Of a stretch of 64,000 bases of DNA, positions 17,465-25,612 are shown one piece after another. The notes under the pieces were generated by a model that did no database searches, was not told where the DNA came from, and saw only the letters and a program-made list of their open reading frames with translations. Both the position numbers and the translations under genes were made by a program. How positions within the stretch are numbered: the stretch's first letter is position 1; every line of letters starts with the position of its first letter. Source of the DNA: Leuconostoc gasicomitatum LMG 18811 (GTDB taxonomy: Bacteria; Bacillota; Bacilli; Lactobacillales; Lactobacillaceae); the NCBI RefSeq assembly GCF_000196855.1, contig NC_014319.1:1550001-1614000 (forward strand), written 5' to 3'.

Positions 17465-17755
17465 TTAAAACGCGCTAGCTACACCAGCAATTAAAGTTAC
17501 CAATATGATTAGTAGAATGAAGTCTAAGAAAGAAATAATTAAACCAGCGATCGCTGTTCCCTTAGGATTACGGAATAAGCCACCAATAGAAAGTGCTAAA
17601 CCGACAAGCCAAACAATCCATCCCAATACAGGAATCCATGACAAGAAAAAGCCAACAATGGCGACGATTAAGCCAGCTAAACCAATACTATTTTTTTCCA
17701 CGACAACATTATTAATCACAACATGACTTGCACCATTTTGATTATTTTCAGACAT
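17465..17755 (-). CDS. Small two-helix membrane protein
   Basis: 96 residues from ATG 17755 (MSENNQNGASH), with AGAGAG upstream. A polar N-terminus of about 20 residues, then two or three hydrophobic segments (about 25-58 and 70-96), GLAGLIVAIVGFFLSWIPVLGW and LFRNPKGTAIAGLIISF. Resembles DUF4190-type small membrane proteins. Last gene of the operon led by 19370-20245; function unknown, probably envelope related. Confidence 0.75.
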   Translation of the reverse strand: MSENNQNGASHVVINNVVVEKNSIGLAGLIVAIVGFFLSWIPVLGWIVWLVGLALSIGGLFRNPKGTAIAGLIISFLDFILLIILVTLIAGVASAF

Positions 17756-17778
17756 TTTTATACACTCTCTTTTCATTA

Positions 17779-19359
17779 TTACTTAACATTATTATCTTCT
17801 GATATTTTCTTTTGATCGGAATCAATTGACTCAACCTGCCATGCTTTATTGCGTTTGTCATAAACCATATGTGCAGTTAGTTCAAACGTTTGCGTTAAAT
17901 CACCATATGAGTCGTTATCCTCATCAGTCGTATAGCGAAAATCAGTTTTTACTTGATAAACAGCATCTGCTGTTGTCAAACTTGTTTGTTTAACTGACTT
18001 AACATTTGGTGATTTAAACGAAACAGACTCTGCATTACGTTTGGCATCATGAAGATTGTGACGTATCATTTTTTTATAGTCTTGGTAAGCATTGTTATTA
18101 GCACCATTTTTAAACATAGCCAAGTTATCTGGATCCTGTTCTTGTGAAGCATATGACCCCAAAGCATCATACATTGAAGAAATTGTACTGTTGGCATCAT
18201 CTTCTGTCAATAAATCATCTGCATTTAAATTGATACTTTCGCCATCATATAAATCCTTCAAACTTGTTTTACTTGTTCTAATGGTTTGGTCTCCAAAATT
18301 AGCTTGTACATAGGCTTTGGCACCTTTACTAACTGGCATATTTTTCACTGACAACAAGCCATCTTTTAGTGTGCCAACCTTTGTCTCGCCAATGTACAAA
18401 TCACCTGAACTTAAATTTGAATTGACATCAAAACTAATCATTTCAATTGCCAAGTTAACATCTGTTGAACTATCAATTTTCCTTTCGTCACTGGTTGCGA
18501 CATCTTGACCACTGATTTTACCAGTCGCATTAAATTGATATAATCCGCTAACTTGGTGCTTAAATGCCTTAGAATAACGATTAGAATTTGATTTTCCAAT
18601 CGTTGTGCCATTCATTTTGAGCGTCATGCCTTTATTATTCGTTGACACATTAAAATCAACTGGCTTGACAGTTAATTGATATTTAGGGAAGACTAGGAAA
18701 GCATTCCCCGTACGTTTGAAAATAAAACCATCATCATTTTGTCCTGATAACATGAGGTTATAAATGTCTTTTTCTCGTTGATTGGACCATTTAGCACTGG
18801 CTATATTGTTAACAAAAGGAGATAAGGCGTCTTGATCGATTTTCTTCTTTGTATCTGACCAGACAAAATTCTTTGCGTATTGTGCTGCACTTTCAGACTT
18901 TAGCACTTTCAAAGTACGTTGCGCCGTTGCTGCTTTAGCATAATACTTAGTTCCCCAAGTCACCAAGGCAATTCCAATAGCAATAACCACTACACCAGTT
19001 GTTATTGCTATTTTTTTACCTTGAGACATTTTTTGTCTTGGGACTCTAGGAACAGGATTTGGTTCATTTTCGGTCTGCTTTATTGCTAATGGTGTGACAC
19101 TGTTAAAGCCAGCACTTTTAGCTTGACGAACCTCTTCGAGGTTAGGTAAGCGACCATTAACTAATTCAAACTTATCACGCCATTTTTCCGCCAACGTGAT
19201 TACAGGTTTTGCTGTTACTCGTTCTTCTTCACTCTGGTTAAATACTGAACTGCCTACCAAGACGAATCCATTCTTACTAGCTTCAGTAACTTCTTCTATT
19301 GTCGGGTTACGGTGATTTTTTGCTTTGAAATCAGCTAACCATTCTTTTTTCTGATCCAT
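17779..19359 (-). CDS. TcaA-like membrane protein with doubled N-terminal motif
   Basis: 526 residues. Two copies of a short motif open the protein: KKEWLADFKAKNHRNPTIEE at residue 4 and AEKWRDKFELVNGRLPNLEE near 58, each followed by V, A and GF. A membrane helix at about 122-140 follows, then a large outside part with repeated beta-rich segments, as in TcaA/YvbJ-type proteins linked to cell wall antibiotics in other Firmicutes. The N-terminus should be cytoplasmic. The same motif opens the neighbouring gene. Function is inferred from family resemblance and position. Confidence 0.7.
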   Translation of the reverse strand: MDQKKEWLADFKAKNHRNPTIEEVTEASKNGFVLVGSSVFNQSEEERVTAKPVITLAEKWRDKFELVNGRLPNLEEVRQAKSAGFNSVTPLAIKQTENEPNPVPRVPRQKMSQGKKIAITTGVVVIAIGIALVTWGTKYYAKAATAQRTLKVLKSESAAQYAKNFVWSDTKKKIDQDALSPFVNNIASAKWSNQREKDIYNLMLSGQNDDGFIFKRTGNAFLVFPKYQLTVKPVDFNVSTNNKGMTLKMNGTTIGKSNSNRYSKAFKHQVSGLYQFNATGKISGQDVATSDERKIDSSTDVNLAIEMISFDVNSNLSSGDLYIGETKVGTLKDGLLSVKNMPVSKGAKAYVQANFGDQTIRTSKTSLKDLYDGESINLNADDLLTEDDANSTISSMYDALGSYASQEQDPDNLAMFKNGANNNAYQDYKKMIRHNLHDAKRNAESVSFKSPNVKSVKQTSLTTADAVYQVKTDFRYTTDEDNDSYGDLTQTFELTAHMVYDKRNKAWQVESIDSDQKKISEDNNVK

Positions 19360-19369
19360 AATATACGCC

Positions 19370-20245
19370 TCACCAATTTCCTAAGGATTGCGTTAGATTT
19401 TGAAGTAGTGGCACGACAACAACACGTAATTCAATGAAAATCATAACGACACTTATAAACCACTGGAGCAAAAGTACCCATGCGGCATCAAACTTTCCTT
19501 GATTCAAATGCACTTCTGAGATTAAAAACTGTTGCGCTGCAACTAGTAAGGCCGCCCCAAAAATCAAAATAAAGCCAATGACAGTAAAAGAAGTAAAAAA
19601 AGTATTAAAAATCGCGGATACGTTTTCCAACGATGAAGCTGATATAGAAGGAATTGGCACAACAAATGATAATATAGCACCAATAATATTAATCAAAGAT
19701 AATGGTGCAAACCACTTTAAATACTTACATACCATTTGATTCATAGTAAAGTAGCGACGGTTAAGCAACAGCAAACCAGGTAATGCTGCTAGATAAAATA
19801 CGGCAAAAATGATAGCAACGTAGAAAAATAGTTGCCAATTTAAAACACTTAACTGACTACGAATCTTGGTCAAATCTGTGCCATACGACGAATAACTATT
19901 TAGTGCAGCATTCATACCACGACGAATAACGTTTGAAAATGAAAATGCTCCAGTTAATGATGCGATAGCAAACGATACCCACAGAAATATATTACCAGAT
20001 ACATCATTTAACCGACTTGGCTGTGCAATAATTGGCTTAACCCAAGTCCAATAATTTCCAGCGTGTTGCTTGGCATTTGTGTAGACACGATTAGCATCTT
20101 CGGTAATAGCTACCTTAGATGTGTTATGTTCTTGTTTCTCTAATGTCACTTCTCCATTTTCAATTGCTGCCAATACCTCATCTGCTGTTGGTTGACGATC
20201 ATTGATTAGTGCAAAATATTCTTGCCACTCTTTCTTTGTAGCCAT
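19370..20245 (-). CDS. Multi-pass membrane protein sharing the N-terminal motif (DUF6574-like)
   Basis: 291 residues. Starts with KKEWQEYFALINDRQPTADE then VLAAIENGE, the same motif found twice in the next gene. Five or so hydrophobic segments follow (about 87-105, 137-160, 180-200, 222-245, 255-280). AGGGAGAG ribosome site. First gene of the second leftward envelope operon, 10 nt from the TcaA-like gene. No enzymatic motif seen. Confidence 0.7.
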   Translation of the reverse strand: MATKKEWQEYFALINDRQPTADEVLAAIENGEVTLEKQEHNTSKVAITEDANRVYTNAKQHAGNYWTWVKPIIAQPSRLNDVSGNIFLWVSFAIASLTGAFSFSNVIRRGMNAALNSYSSYGTDLTKIRSQLSVLNWQLFFYVAIIFAVFYLAALPGLLLLNRRYFTMNQMVCKYLKWFAPLSLINIIGAILSFVVPIPSISASSLENVSAIFNTFFTSFTVIGFILIFGAALLVAAQQFLISEVHLNQGKFDAAWVLLLQWFISVVMIFIELRVVVVPLLQNLTQSLGNW

Positions 20246-20294
20246 GCATACTCTCCCTATTATATTTTTTCAGTAAAAATCCACTAATTTAAAA

Positions 20295-20342
20295 ATTATA
20301 ATATAAAAACAGTCTTTTTACTTAAATGTCCCTATGTCGGGG
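20295..20342 (-). promoter_or_regulatory. Promoter of the second envelope operon with GTCCC-N4-TCGGGG element
   Basis: On the plus strand GTCCCTATGTCGGGG lies at 20328-20342 and ATTATA (minus-strand TATAAT) at 20295-20300, separated by exactly 27 nt. The minus strand has no good -35 box, so an activator is plausible. The same element at the same distance precedes the other envelope operon (24411-24458). Confidence 0.65.
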
Positions 20343-20362
20343 TACTTTTGATTAATAATTAA

Positions 20363-20397
20363 AAAGGACTTCAAAAATGCATATTTTGAAGTCCTTT
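20363..20397 (-). terminator. Terminator after the surface-protein gene
   Basis: AAAGGACTTCAAAA and TTTTGAAGTCCTTT form a 14-bp stem followed on the minus strand by TTTTTAATTATT. It closes the upstream three-gene operon and isolates it from the next promoter. Confidence 0.9.
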
Positions 20398-20412
20398 GTT
20401 AATTTTTTTATA

Positions 20413-23172
20413 TTATGCATTAAACCGTTTATTTCTCAAATGTTTTGGTACATACAGCGACATACCTAGTAAACTAAATAAACTGATTAATAGTGCTTGA
20501 TTGTTATGTTGCTGATTCTTTGCAGTTTGTGGCAGTAAACTAGCCTGTGTAGTAATGACTGGGTTAACTTGTTTTACTGGTACAAGTGTATTAATCTTGG
20601 GATGAAATGTAACATTCGTATATTGATTTTCAAATGACACACGATTCAATGCCTGTGTATTCGCATCATAAATGAAGTTATCATCGTGAGATGAGACGTT
20701 AGTCTTTTGAGATGTTGCATTACTATTAGAATTAGTAACGTGAGAGCTGTTTTTAGCTGTTTGAGATGAGTCCGTCCCTGTTGGTGTGTTATGACCAGTT
20801 TGATGACTTGGGGCTGAAGGCTTACCTGTATTGCCAGAATTAGGCTTTGAATGGTCTGGTGTTGATGGCTTAGCGTTGGCTGGGTTAATGGCATTTAAGT
20901 AAGCTTGACTGTCAGCTTGAGCCTTGGCATAGCTTTTAACGTTTGACGTCTTCAAATTGGCTAAAGCTTTGGCATTGGCTGAAACTAATTGGTTGTAAGC
21001 GTCAGTATTTTGAATCTCTAGTTGCTTGAGATTCTTGGCACCTTGGGCAGTCTTTGTTGCTAAATCAGCATCTAATTGCGCCTTTAAGTTTGCTAAAGCT
21101 GTATCCAAGTTTGTTGCAAAAGTTTTTGCATCTTGTGCCTGTTGTGCCTCAAAAGTAGCTAATTCAGTTGCTTGAACTTTGTCAAAGGCTGCCTTTTCAG
21201 TAGCTTTCTTATTCGCTAATTCTTCAGGTGACATATCCTTGATGCTTGAAATCTTGGCATCGTAGTTGTCTTTCAAATTAGCTAAGGTTTCAGCTAATTT
21301 TGTTGCGTTGGTATCATGCTTTGCTGTGGCGTCAGCCTTGATTTGAGCAATGGTATTCCCATAAATGGTTGCATTTTGAGAAATAGTTTTATCATGAGTT
21401 GATTTGATTTGAACAATAGCATCAGCAAAAGCTTGATTAATGCTGTCAATCGCTTTTTGATTCTTTGATTGTAAGTTTGATAATTGGGTTGCATTGTCAA
21501 ACTTAACTTGGCTCAAGTTAGCTTGAGCGTCGGCTAGGGCTTGTTTGTTAGCCTGTGTATTACCGCCACGAGCAGCTTCAATTGTTTGTGTTGAAGTCGT
21601 TGCCATATCTGTTAATGGACCGGCATTGCCTGTCATGGATGCATTTTGGAAAATAACGACATATGGCCAATCACCAGTATTATCTTTTTGCATAGCAAAG
21701 CCCATGATTTGGTCATCCATCATGAAGTTCTGTAAATGACCGTTGCCGTGAGCGCCATCTTGATAAATCATAGCTGTAATGACATTCAAGATATTAACTT
21801 TGGCTGATAACATTGTTAAGTCTGAGAATGCAGATACGCCAATATTTTCTCCGGCAAACCATAATCCTTGAGCAGCATAGGCATTATCTGTTTTTGTTGT
21901 AACGTCACTACCTAAATAGGCAGTATGCTTGAAGCCAGCATTGGCTTCTTCACGAGCCTTGGCTGAAGCAATAACGGCTTTTTGGTTTTGTTCGGTCCAA
22001 CGAACAGGAGGCATACCATGAGTAGTACGATATGAATTAACAAGAGTGACTGCATAATCAGCTAATTCAGTTTGTTGGGCATCTGTTGGTGCTCCCTTGA
22101 TTTGAGCAGTGTTGTCATTTTCACCAAAATAATTATAGTAATCATAGTATCCAGCATCGTTAACATGACTGGCTGGAATCTTTGGGTCAGAAATTGAGGT
22201 TGGTAAATTGCCGACACTATTAATACTAGATGGTGCTTGAGAATTGTCTCGGTCATAGTTAGTATCATATGGATTGGCCGGAGTTGCAGCCTTGGCTGAT
22301 GATTTATTAACATTAGCTTGTGCTGTATCAACATTCTTTTGAGCAGAAGCTTCTGTTGAAGCATTAGCTTGTTTTTGAGCTGATTCAGTCTTTGTATTGT
22401 CAGCTGTTTGTTTGGTAGAAGCTGAAGTTTGTTGTGTCTTAGCATCAGTTGTGCTTTGAGCCTGAATAGCATCGACAGTTTGATTGGCTGTTGTTTGGTC
22501 AGTCGTAGCCTTATCCGTTGCTTTTTGAGCATCCGAATCAATGGCTTTGTCTGCTGTGGCCGCATCATCTTGTGTTGCTTTGGTATCAGAATTATATTGA
22601 TTTGTCGCAGTATCACGTTGTGCTTGGGCAGAACCAGATTCTTGAGCTTGTTGATTGGCGAAATCAGTTGCTGCTTGCTGTTGCTTGGCAACTTCAGCAT
22701 CGTGAGCGACTTGAGTCGCTTGTGCTTGTTGTGCCTTGGCTGATTCATCAGCAGCTTGTTGGTCAGCTAACTTTTGAGCTGCAGCTTGCGCATCAGCTTG
22801 GTCTTTTGCAACTTGAGCAGCTTGAGCGTCAGCTAAAGCCTTGGCATTTGCTTGTTCAGTAGCAGCCTGTGCATCCGCATTAGCTTGAGCCTTGGCTTGT
22901 TCATCAGCTTTTTGTTGTGCTTGTAAATCAGCTAATTTTTGAGTTTCAGAATCCTTGGCCTTGTCAAAATCTGATTTTGGCGCTGTAACACCAGATTGAG
23001 ATACAACGTCCGGTTGCTGATTGTCCTTAATTTCATCGGCACTAGCATTGATAGTAACTGATGAAATTGTTGCCGTAACTATTGTTGCTGTTGTTAAAGC
23101 AACTATCTGCTTATGTGATTTAACAGCATATCGCTCACTACGCGTTGTTGCACCATTATTATATTGACTCAT
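20413..23172 (-). CDS. LPQTA-anchored SEC10/PgrA-like surface protein with CAP domain
   Basis: 919 residues. Signal peptide (about 1-45: basic SHKQIVALTTATIVTATISS, cut after NASA). Residues about 60-300 are Ala/Gln/Asp-rich, probably coiled coil. A CAP/SCP-like domain at about 350-520 carries LVNSYRTTHGMPPVRW, HTAYLG and GENIGVSAF, as in SEC10/PgrA surface exclusion proteins. A second coiled coil at about 545-745 and a Ser/Thr/Asn-rich wall-spanning part follow. The C-terminus has sortase motif LPQTA at 880-884, a hydrophobic segment and a basic tail. The P1' residue is Ala rather than Gly. Likely role in adhesion or cell-cell contact; inferred. Confidence 0.85.
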   Translation of the reverse strand: MSQYNNGATTRSERYAVKSHKQIVALTTATIVTATISSVTINASADEIKDNQQPDVVSQSGVTAPKSDFDKAKDSETQKLADLQAQQKADEQAKAQANADAQAATEQANAKALADAQAAQVAKDQADAQAAAQKLADQQAADESAKAQQAQATQVAHDAEVAKQQQAATDFANQQAQESGSAQAQRDTATNQYNSDTKATQDDAATADKAIDSDAQKATDKATTDQTTANQTVDAIQAQSTTDAKTQQTSASTKQTADNTKTESAQKQANASTEASAQKNVDTAQANVNKSSAKAATPANPYDTNYDRDNSQAPSSINSVGNLPTSISDPKIPASHVNDAGYYDYYNYFGENDNTAQIKGAPTDAQQTELADYAVTLVNSYRTTHGMPPVRWTEQNQKAVIASAKAREEANAGFKHTAYLGSDVTTKTDNAYAAQGLWFAGENIGVSAFSDLTMLSAKVNILNVITAMIYQDGAHGNGHLQNFMMDDQIMGFAMQKDNTGDWPYVVIFQNASMTGNAGPLTDMATTSTQTIEAARGGNTQANKQALADAQANLSQVKFDNATQLSNLQSKNQKAIDSINQAFADAIVQIKSTHDKTISQNATIYGNTIAQIKADATAKHDTNATKLAETLANLKDNYDAKISSIKDMSPEELANKKATEKAAFDKVQATELATFEAQQAQDAKTFATNLDTALANLKAQLDADLATKTAQGAKNLKQLEIQNTDAYNQLVSANAKALANLKTSNVKSYAKAQADSQAYLNAINPANAKPSTPDHSKPNSGNTGKPSAPSHQTGHNTPTGTDSSQTAKNSSHVTNSNSNATSQKTNVSSHDDNFIYDANTQALNRVSFENQYTNVTFHPKINTLVPVKQVNPVITTQASLLPQTAKNQQHNNQALLISLFSLLGMSLYVPKHLRNKRFNA

Positions 23173-23234
23173 TTAAATACTCTCCCTGTAGTATGTTACT
23201 TTTAGATATAACCATTCTTAAATCTCTAAATGTG

Positions 23235-23582
23235 CTACCTTGCTTTAGTAATACTTGACTGAACACCAATACTCTTTAAATATTTAACAACTTCTCTTGC
23301 TGTGTCATTATCCAATTCTTTAATATACACAACAGGTGTAGCTGTCACATACTTTAATGTTTGATCCTTCGTCATATTAAATAATTCACTAGAGACACTG
23401 ACTAATTCTTCTTCAGATGTTTCTGGTACATATTCCAATTTGACACCAAATATATTCTGTGCATTCTCACGCTTTTTAATCTGATTAATTCTAATTAAAT
23501 CACGAGCAAAACCGCTAGAATCAGCTAAATTTTGAATTGTTTGATGCTTAACATAATTACCAAAAAACTTAAATATTCCCAT
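23235..23582 (-). CDS. Small protein of unknown function
   Basis: 115 residues, no signal peptide or membrane segment. The C-terminal third (PVVYIKELDNDTAREVVKYL onward, then GVQSS) looks like the alpha/beta fold at the end of ribosomal L7/L12-like proteins, a weak resemblance. Sits between the coiled-coil membrane gene and the surface protein in the first envelope operon. Confidence 0.6.
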   Translation of the reverse strand: MGIFKFFGNYVKHQTIQNLADSSGFARDLIRINQIKKRENAQNIFGVKLEYVPETSEEELVSVSSELFNMTKDQTLKYVTATPVVYIKELDNDTAREVVKYLKSIGVQSSITKAR

Positions 23583-23596
23583 TGATATACGACCTT

Positions 23597-24328
23597 TTAT
23601 CGATTTTTAATTGCATTAATATCACTGCCAATGGATGTAGTAGTTTTATTAATATTGTCAATTTGTGCAATTTGCGTAGCAATCATCGCATTTTGCGCTC
23701 CAATAGAGGTAGTTACTCTATTAAGTAAAATATTATTTTGCTCAGCATTCATCATTTGTTGCTTTTGATTATTAATGATTTCTTGTTGATTCTGTTCTTG
23801 GCGGAATCTATGTATTTCCGTATCATATTTGTTAATAGCTTCTTTCCAATTATCAGCTCGGCCACTATTTAGAATGTTATATAAAGCTGCTACAGCATAT
23901 ATATCTTTCATTTCAGGTAATAAAAAATCAAGACTGTCTATAAATGCATCACTTGATTGATAAATTTCTAATTCATTTTTCGCTTTAGATGCCAATTGAC
24001 GATACTGTGCTACCTTCTCTTTAGCCAATGCTTTATCTTTTTTACCTGAACTATAATTGTAGGCATAATACGCCGCAAACCCACCACTGATAATACCCAC
24101 GCCAATACCTAAAACAGAATATACTATGACATGAACTATCAAAAAGGCAGCAGCAGGTATTCCCCATTTCAAAACACCTTGAAATCCAACCGGCTTATTT
24201 AGCGTTTGATGCACACGACGATTAATTGTTGCTATTTGATCTTCTCGTTCTTTTTTATCCGACAACACTTGATAAGCTTGTGCTAGTAAGCCCATCAAAT
24301 CAGTTTTAGAAAGTTCTGAATATTCCAT
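23597..24328 (-). CDS. Two-helix membrane protein with coiled coils, unknown function
   Basis: 243 residues from ATG 24328, chosen because GGAG is 9 nt upstream. A soluble helical N-terminus, two membrane helices at about 55-90 (GIPAAAFLIVHVIVYSVLGI...GFAAYYAY), then a long helical part with Gln/Asn-rich coiled coil and the near-repeat TTSIGAQNA/TTSIGSDIN near the end. First gene of the first leftward envelope operon. Not recognised. Confidence 0.65.
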   Translation of the reverse strand: MEYSELSKTDLMGLLAQAYQVLSDKKEREDQIATINRRVHQTLNKPVGFQGVLKWGIPAAAFLIVHVIVYSVLGIGVGIISGGFAAYYAYNYSSGKKDKALAKEKVAQYRQLASKAKNELEIYQSSDAFIDSLDFLLPEMKDIYAVAALYNILNSGRADNWKEAINKYDTEIHRFRQEQNQQEIINNQKQQMMNAEQNNILLNRVTTSIGAQNAMIATQIAQIDNINKTTTSIGSDINAIKNR

Positions 24329-24410
24329 AGGATATTTCTCCATTATTATAGTTTTGCTAGTCAAATTCTCTTACTCTAAAAATAATCAAGTAGAATAAGA
24401 TACCTTTGTC

Positions 24411-24458
24411 ATTATATTATTTAAATCGCGTTCATTCACAAAAGTCCCAAATTCGGGG
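24411..24458 (-). promoter_or_regulatory. Promoter of the first envelope operon with GTCCC-N4-TCGGGG element
   Basis: Plus strand GTCCCAAATTCGGGG at 24444-24458; minus-strand -10 TATAAT at 24411-24416; spacing exactly 27 nt, as at 20295-20342. The element lies between this promoter and the divergent Rgg-like gene, so one site could serve both directions. Confidence 0.65.
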
Positions 24459-24466
24459 CTTTTTTT
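24442..24466 (+). terminator. Orphan rightward terminator-like hairpin
   Basis: AAGTCCC-AAATTC-GGGGCTT with seven T's following forms a 7-bp stem and U-run in the rightward direction. No rightward gene precedes it. It coincides with the shared regulatory element and lies 59 nt upstream of the Rgg-like start codon, so it may be an attenuator of a leader RNA or only the regulator site. Confidence 0.45.
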
Positions 24467-24524
24467 CTAACACAATATACTAAAATGAATATTAAATATA
24501 TCATTAAAAACTAGGGATTAGTAA

Positions 24525-25612
24525 ATGACCAAATCAAATCAAGCCAAGCCAAGCCAAGCCAAGCCAAGCCAAGCCAAGCCAAGCCAAGCCAAGCCAAGCC
24601 AAGCCAAGCCAAGCCAAGCCAAGCCAAGCCAAGCCAAGCCAAGCCAATTGGATACCATTTAAATGAAATACGCAAGAACAAGGGGATTAAATTATCATTA
24701 CTTTTAGATTACATAAATACTTCTAATTCATCTTGGTATCGATATGTTAAGGGAGAAACGGACATTACAACGTTGCAGTTTCTTCATACAGTGCGTTACT
24801 TACGTACAACATTTTCTGAAGTTTCTCACATGAAAAGTATGGCGGATGATCATCTAAAGCTTTACGATACCCCATCATATTTGCCTGCCAAAATTAATTA
24901 TCAAATACCTCTGCGCGAGTTCTATATAACGTATAATATTGAACGCCTAAAAATGGCTGTCAAACTCTATCGCCTAACATCGTCTTCATCATTTAATAAC
25001 GATTTACCATTGGATTTAAAAAAAGCCCTCAAAAGTGTGCTACTTGAGGGTGAGTATGGCTTAGAAGAAATTAATTTACTAGTACTATTAAAGTTAGAAT
25101 TTAATAATGTCCTATTTCACGAATATGAATTCATTAATATTTTGCACAATCCCATCGCTACAATCAAGCGCAGTATTGATATCACAACATCAATTGGTGA
25201 TTTATCTGCCGCGCAACAAAATGTCATTTTCTTTAACCAATCACTTGGCTTACGTTTTGCTTTTAGCGCCTTGACCAGTATTACTTCAGAACATAAAGCA
25301 TCACAATATGCACCTCTATTATTTCAAGTGATTCAACTCAATGATCAAGTAGAATATCCATCATGGTCTCTATATAATTTTGCTTCGAAAAAACTCCTTG
25401 CGATTAGTGAACTCTATCTACTTGATAAACCAACCTATTCATCTGAAATTAATGCTTTTCGGCAAGCGCTCATAACACTTTATCCTAGCAAAACACATGC
25501 CGACTTGGAGAGTGTAAATTATGATCTATTGAAAAATAATATTTTTGAAACGACCGTTTCTACCGAAATGAAAAAAGCTTATCAACAGTATGTTGATAAG
25601 CTTGAAAATTAA
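24525..25612 (+). CDS. Phase-variable Rgg/GadR/MutR-type regulator, out of frame at 21 repeats
   Basis: ATG 24525 has AGGG 8 nt upstream and reads MTKSNQA followed by KPSQA units encoded by the AAGCC tract. In this sequence it runs out of frame and stops at TAA 24660-24662 (45 residues). The frame that continues after the tract reads an Rgg-like helix-turn-helix (HLNEIRKNKGIKLS, then SSWYRYVKGETDI) and a helical C-terminal domain to 25612. That frame has no start codon between a TAG at 24512 and the tract. Losing one 5-bp unit gives a 360-residue protein. A TTG at 24773 would give a 279-residue form without the DNA-binding helices. Rgg proteins usually bind short peptides; no peptide gene was found. 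Confidence 0.85.
24540..24647 (+). repeat. (AAGCC)21 pentanucleotide tandem repeat
   Basis: Twenty-one perfect AAGCC units at 24541-24645, with period 5 extending from 24540 to 24647. The tract starts 16 bases after the A of ATG 24525. Its G+C is much above the surrounding DNA. Five-base units shift the reading frame with each gain or loss; three units encode KPSQA. Perfect homogeneity suggests active slippage. Confidence 0.98.

Follow-up and report, generated by a model that had tools for sequence, protein, structure and literature searches.

What does a perfect run of AAGCC pentanucleotides do at the start of a regulator gene in a meat-spoilage bacterium? Simple-repeat phase variation has mostly been studied in host-adapted pathogens, and if this run switched its gene on and off, single cells of the species and of its close relatives, the food-spoilage and kimchi leuconostocs, could randomly switch their coat. 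The locus lies in a window of 64,000 nucleotides from Leuconostoc gasicomitatum LMG 18811 (contig NC_014319.1, positions 1,550,001 to 1,614,000), which comes from a 1,954,080-base single-contig genome. By the window we mean this whole stretch, to which all positions below refer unless another locus is named, and its features are collected in Table 1.

Table 1. Features of the regulator and envelope locus in the window (positions counted from the first base of the window)
Feature	Position	Strand	Remark
Start codon of the regulator gene	24525..24527	+	ATG at the equivalent place in other species with an assembled 5' end
Two degenerate AAATC units, 5' edge of the tract	24531..24540	+	AAACC AAATC at this place in L. 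gelidum (G005)
(AAGCC)21 tract, putative frame switch	24541..24645	+	Perfect; shortly 3' of ATG 24525
Short ORF, 45 codons plus stop	24525..24662	+	Read from the ATG; predicted OFF product at 21 units
Regulator body, HTH frame, 322 aa plus stop	24644..25612	+	XRE-type HTH at about residues 1-65, then a helical C-terminal domain
Candidate -10 (TATACT) of the regulator's own promoter	24476..24481	+	17 nt from the box
Palindromic box GTCCCAAATTCGGGG, putative operator	24444..24458	+	Lies between the regulator gene and the divergent p255 operon
TATAAT, proposed p255 operon promoter	24411..24416	-	Spacing to the box, exactly 27 nt
p255, first gene of the divergent operon	23597..24364	-	True start probably an ATG slightly inside (by eye)
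p115, small protein, p255 operon	23235..23582	-	Within the divergent operon
PgrA-type surface protein, 919 aa	20413..23172	-	SEC10/PgrA, TIGR04320, E 8.4e-53
Second box copy GTCCCTATGTCGGGG	20328..20342	+	In front of the m291-TcaA operon; conserved in L. gelidum, with a single mismatch in L. carnosum
TATAAT, proposed m291 promoter	20295..20300	-	Spacing to the second box, exactly 27 nt
m291, first gene of the second operon	19370..20245	-	Hydrophobic segments by eye
TcaA-like protein, 526 aa	17779..19359	-	PF22820, E 1.6e-10, 41.2 bits against a cut-off of 27

An earlier note on this DNA had described 21 perfect AAGCC units within the first codons of the gene, and the tract is indeed found at 24541-24645. 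The ATG is preceded by what appears by eye to be a Shine-Dalgarno-like sequence containing GGG. From this ATG to the end of the stop codon at 25612 there are 1088 nt, which leaves a remainder of two after division by three. With 21 units, the frame of the ATG runs into a stop at 24660, 45 codons in, and the HTH frame is out of phase with ATG 24525, that is, OFF; by arithmetic, the loss of one unit or the gain of two restores it. The tract is open in all three frames, each of which encodes a rotation of KPSQA, and the third frame also meets a stop soon beyond the tract. No ATG, GTG or TTG is present in the HTH frame between the HTH and the preceding in-frame stop, and the next listed in-frame start, TTG 24773, lies within the HTH, as the note had held in denying this frame any alternative start. 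Because of these frame lengths and the lack of another upstream start, 20, 17 or 23 units are in frame and 21 or 22 are not, exactly as had been calculated. The length of the tract is far above chance: the runner-up among the perfect repeats in the window (units of 1-12 bases, three or more copies) measures 15 nt against its 105 nt, and the longest perfect repeat in 400 kb sampled from the genome of 1.954 Mb measures 21 nt. The locus thus has a long, perfect, coding tract close to the start codon, with a unit that is not a multiple of three, as in a contingency locus.

A full-length regulator gene was found in 8 of the 19 genomes of the genus, one copy (G004) being in two pieces through a frameshift, and a ninth genome (G012) carries a C-terminal remnant with a stop. 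Among 397 genomes of the family, drawn evenly out of a larger group, there were 17 matches to the regulator, namely, these nine and eight that match in the HTH only. Runs of at least five AARCC units occur in 6 of the 19 genus genomes, every one of them at the regulator gene, and these six represent five Leuconostoc species, with AAGCC in two and AAACC in three. The window genome (G000) has 21 AAGCC units and G004 has 24; contigs break inside the AAGCC tract of L. gelidum (G005) and inside the AAACC tracts of L. rapi (G017) and L. inhae (G007), while L. carnosum (G001) has 18 AAACC units, a gap and 20 more, making 38 or more units around the gap. A further genome, which we take to be L. kimchii (G008), has two units and an out-of-frame regulator, and L. 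miyukkimchii (G014) has one unit and no tract, its ATG being directly in frame with the HTH. The alleles that can be read end to end are therefore those of 21, 24 and 2 units, all OFF, and the in-frame one-unit allele of L. miyukkimchii. That the first three are all OFF says little, since each would be so two times in three by chance; no in-frame long-tract allele is present among the assembled genomes, four others of which break or gap within the tract. The tract probably expanded from a seed of one or two units, and its unit appears to have turned over from AAACC to AAGCC, which would indicate repeated slippage. Since draft assemblies break at the tract, annotations may often miss the regulator gene or give it as broken.

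AARCC runs were also seen in four genomes outside Leuconostoc, among them G299 and G309. In another genus of the family, 14 AAACC units (L092, G318:C14, 5998-6067) and 6 AAACC units (L091, G283:C7, 161752-161781) stand upstream of a gene that we take to be Dps/ferritin-like, where they may switch a stress gene at the level of its promoter or leader.

An out-of-frame gene could simply be a dying one, the tract having expanded neutrally in a regulator that was lost before, with nothing but the frame left of it. The out-of-frame alleles of 21, 24 and 2 units fit such decay, as do the remnant with a stop in G012 and the OFF state of G008 at two units, a length that would rarely slip. However, the HTH frame is without an internal stop in all seven genes compared, and the coding sequence of the out-of-frame regulator is under purifying selection, a further property of contingency loci. 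The dN/dS of the regulator was 0.093 for L. gasicomitatum-L. gelidum, 0.100 for L. gasicomitatum-L. carnosum, 0.102 for L. inhae-L. rapi and 0.105 for L. kimchii-L. rapi, the two-unit genome thus included, and in the same pairs the neighboring reductase gave 0.109, 0.134, 0.092 and 0.097. For this set G004 was omitted for its frameshifts, m291 of L. inhae was left out as well, and the L. inhae reductase was trimmed by 30 bases at its start. The HTH part alone gave 0.03 in three of the four close pairs and 0.099 in L. gasicomitatum-L. carnosum, and the HTH was more conserved than the remainder in four of the five pairs tested. Together with a palindromic box beside the gene that is kept in all eight regulator genomes, with its promoter spacing at most sites (see below), these results make decay unlikely.

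The count of 21 could, in turn, be an assembly artifact in a strain that is simply ON, given that long tandem repeats are error-prone and that the tract is broken or gapped in four draft assemblies. The earlier note had proposed counting units in related strains as a check, and the count does differ, G004 having 24 units against 21 in the nearly identical window. G004 was deposited as L. inhae KCTC 3774; PMC4895993 assigns it to L. gelidum subsp. gasicomitatum, describes its genome as very close to that of LMG 18811T, yet not identical, and considers its numerous frameshifts most probably sequencing errors, as far as the relevant sections of that paper go. Over 19 kb, G004 and the window differ by 1 substitution and 14 internal single-base gaps, with one more at the cut edge, and the sole other gap, of 15 nt, is the tract. 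This gap is unlike the single-base frameshift errors of G004, although it may be an assembly error all the same. The length thus differs between close strains, as it does in contingency loci, in one pair of which one member is an error-prone draft. An ON strain with a miscounted tract is quite unlikely, since the second assembly is also out of frame, and the dependence of the frame on the tract holds even if the count is wrong. The claim that tract length frames the regulator in and out is hence backed, indirectly, by the recurrence in five species, the three-unit difference and the purifying selection.

The earlier note had called the regulator Rgg-like, a description that fits its HTH, fails on the C-terminal family models and finds a weak match in the predicted fold. 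An HTH profile aligned to L019 with 43% identity over 56 residues, and the L019 protein matches both TIGR01716 and PF21259, as do, above cut-off, four of the five proteins examined among the HTH-only relatives (11 rows in 8 genomes). For the C-terminal domain of the seven members themselves, neither TIGR01716 (RGG_Cterm) nor PF21259 (Rgg_C) was listed at E values up to 10, in a search in which the HMMER filters discard most matches above E 0.1. Two structure models had low confidence overall (mean pLDDT, 57.6 and 56.1). In the second, residues 1-50 reached a pLDDT of 77-91 in 10-residue blocks, and the first ~70 residues matched several XRE chains at 2-3 Å, which places an XRE-type HTH at the N terminus. 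The best Foldseek match of this model was Rgg2 (E 1.3e-3), and the first 27 rows (E 1.3e-3 to 0.2, none at 0.001 or better) were the known or putative regulators Rgg2, NrpR, ComR, Rgg3, ElrR, PlcR, Rgg144 and a Listeria regulator. Its alignment had been extended by four less closely related proteins, each of them an Rgg by its model match, and in the first model, built without those four, ElrR (E 0.32) and Rgg2 (E 0.47) appeared among unrelated helical folds. Because the C-terminal domain matches no Rgg model, the term Rgg-like rests on the HTH and the weak fold match, and we regard the predicted protein as an HTH regulator with Rgg-like features and not as a proven Rgg. It resembles the Rgg/GadR/MutR and other RRNPP regulators in its XRE-type HTH and predicted helical C-terminal domain and departs from the Rgg/GadR/MutR group in a C-terminal sequence that fits neither family model.

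That the regulator adjoins two envelope operons was borne out, with p255-p115-PgrA divergent from it and m291-TcaA-like nearby. Profile searches gave no family above cut-off for p255. The 919 aa surface protein has a CAP-like region (PF00188, just below its cut-off) and, by eye, an LPQTA sorting-like C terminus, and m291 is probably a membrane protein. The TcaA-like gene is present in all eight regulator genomes against 1 of the 11 others (G015), giving a Fisher p of 1.2e-4, or 2.5e-4 without G004, when relatedness is ignored and the remnant in G012 is scored as lacking the regulator. PgrA is present in 5 of the 6 tract genomes against 1 of the 13 others (p 0.003, with a weak match in G016, E 8.8e-9, scored as absent), an association that adds little beyond shared descent. 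The block of ~8 kb that contains the regulator and the envelope genes (window 17465-25612) is missing in G013 and G018; there the genes on either side of it are next to each other, and it looks as if the block is gained or lost as a unit. In L. inhae, a different 977 aa protein and two others replace the p255-PgrA operon beside the regulator (L033, 13386-18506, G007); in L. rapi, the regulator and the reductase are separated by three additional ORFs (L036, 1099-5446, G017); and G015 has another small HTH gene, judged by eye to be of XRE type, between the reductase and m291 (L059, 5002-5472).

A common signal in front of both operons points to how the regulator might be connected to them. The palindrome GTCCCN4TCGGGG has 13 matches in the 19 genus genomes, 11 of them at the regulator/envelope locus: each of the eight regulator genomes has one beside the regulator, and three stand before m291 (G000, G004 and G005). 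The other two are elsewhere, within long ORFs. With the one-mismatch copy of L. carnosum, the box stands before the second operon in three species. It is absent before m291 in G008, L. rapi and L. inhae, and control of the second operon is therefore not universal; G015, which has m291-TcaA and lacks the regulator, has no box. Short G+C-rich words like this one are not rare, a reversed control word matching 2 to 5 times in each of the genus genomes and, at up to 2 mismatches, 6 times in the window's own genome, so it is the place of the box that counts and not the number of its copies. The box can also fold as a stem-loop and thus could act in RNA.

On the operon side, an exact TATAAT lies 27 nt from the box at 7 of 10 sites, not counting the two of G004, whose box sequences equal those of the window. 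The exceptions are L. rapi, with TATAAT at 28 nt, L. inhae, where the element is degraded, and L. miyukkimchii, with TACAAT at 27 nt and also TATAAT at 22. For the two promoters of the window alone, the shared spacing has a chance of about 3e-4 by composition. By eye, no -35 match is present at the expected place of the proposed operon promoters, and a consensus promoter scan picked up neither of the two promoters proposed next to the regulator, which is expected without a -35, yet lends them no support. By our calculation, made by hand, the box would span about -54 to -40 of the operon transcription start. Activators bind at about these positions. On the regulator side, six of seven species have TATACT or TATATT at 17 nt from the box; at this distance, the box would cover the regulator's own -35, which makes autorepression likely. 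From this arrangement, the regulator is predicted to activate the p255-p115-PgrA and m291-TcaA operons.

Taking as established the tract and its frames, its recurrence across species, the three-unit difference between near-identical genomes, the selection on the gene and the boxes with their spacing, we infer that the gene itself switches. We hold it to be quite probable that the locus is a simple-sequence contingency locus in which slippage flips a regulator that activates two envelope operons through the box and damps its own promoter. Slipped-strand mispairing would add or remove AAGCC units in the stretch that separates the start codon from the HTH, so that one unit count in three would give the full-length regulator, an Rgg-like HTH protein with a low-complexity KPSQA tail, and the others a peptide of ~45 residues. 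When ON, the regulator would most likely bind GTCCCN4TCGGGG as a dimer and activate both operons from promoters that lack a -35 match and have TATAAT at 27 nt from the box, and with the -35 position of its own promoter under the box, it would probably damp its own expression. As the regulator would go ON and OFF at random, a clonal population would mix cells with and without the surface set, which is the surface phenotype that we expect of the switch. A bolder reading, offered tentatively, is that pentanucleotide slippage flips a whole regulon by way of an Rgg-like factor that is possibly a peptide receptor and that would turn on both envelope operons together through the one conserved box, and stochastic switching and quorum-type sensing would then act on one surface programme. 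On that reading, the tract would have been kept through the unit turnover from AAACC to AAGCC, and this in food bacteria, a setting in which pressure from host immunity is an unlikely driver.

Leader-peptide attenuation of the Pil1 type, in which the tract ORF would control downstream transcription through a terminator and would not be the regulator's own N terminus, is very unlikely here. It has a Gram-positive precedent, described in the portions of PMC3894217 that deal with its 22 GCAGA repeats, in a leader peptide that ends before a terminator, and the OFF reading of the present tract likewise yields a short peptide. However, no terminator-like hairpin is listed in 24250-24700, the lone weak candidate on the + strand (24791-24807) lies within the coding sequence, and the tract is contiguous with the HTH frame, with which the ATG of L. 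miyukkimchii is directly in phase. It is also highly improbable that the tract tunes rather than switches, with frameshifting or unusual starts giving protein at every length and only the KPSQA tail length or the translation rate varying, since none of ATG, GTG and TTG serves that frame ahead of the HTH, even if the three open tract frames all encode the same repeat and L. carnosum has 38 or more units around its gap; here "that frame" is the one in which the HTH is read.

If the contingency locus is real, it would suggest that surface bet-hedging is worthwhile even away from animal hosts, for instance in biofilms or under attack by phages, and the locus, with its single tract, regulator and box and its two operons, would make a tractable model. 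A literature search, outside which most subscription papers lay, found no such switch for Leuconostoc or for an Rgg-like regulator, and a word search of the main text of a pangenome study of these species (PMC9733070) gave no hits for phase, repeat, Rgg, surface or regulator. The view in the earlier note that frame-switching repeats are a Gram-negative matter has to be corrected in the light of two streptococcal pentanucleotide switches, as set out in the relevant sections of the two reports: Scl2 of Streptococcus pyogenes, with CAAAA (PMC5005324), and Pil1 of S. gallolyticus, with GCAGA (PMC3894217). Scl2 shares with our locus the Gram-positive host, a pentanucleotide tract just 3' of the ATG and an outcome that is either in frame or an early stop (PMC5005324). 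In contrast, Scl2 is itself the surface protein, whereas here a predicted transcription factor, with a box before two operons, would be switched in a food bacterium. Pil1 shares about 22 pentanucleotide units in a Gram-positive bacterium, the control of a surface operon and population heterogeneity (PMC3894217); there, translation of the leader opposes a terminator in cis, whereas here a trans-acting regulator is framed in or out, with no terminator listed after the tract. Transcriptional regulators are among the Gardnerella genes associated with homopolymer tracts (PMC11287997), and repeat-linked regulators outside the Gram-negatives are therefore not new as such, but those tracts are homopolymers, and the excerpted text of that paper names no regulon, whereas a pentanucleotide at a single gene is combined here with a conserved box. 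Phasevarions, in which a phase-variable DNA methyltransferase is the one switched gene that governs several others in trans (PMC7394358), are similar in design, but they act through genome-wide methylation, in contrast to a predicted sequence-specific transcription factor with a local set of two operons. What is new compared to all of these is a predicted regulator as the switched gene, together with a recognizable two-operon target set, in food bacteria.
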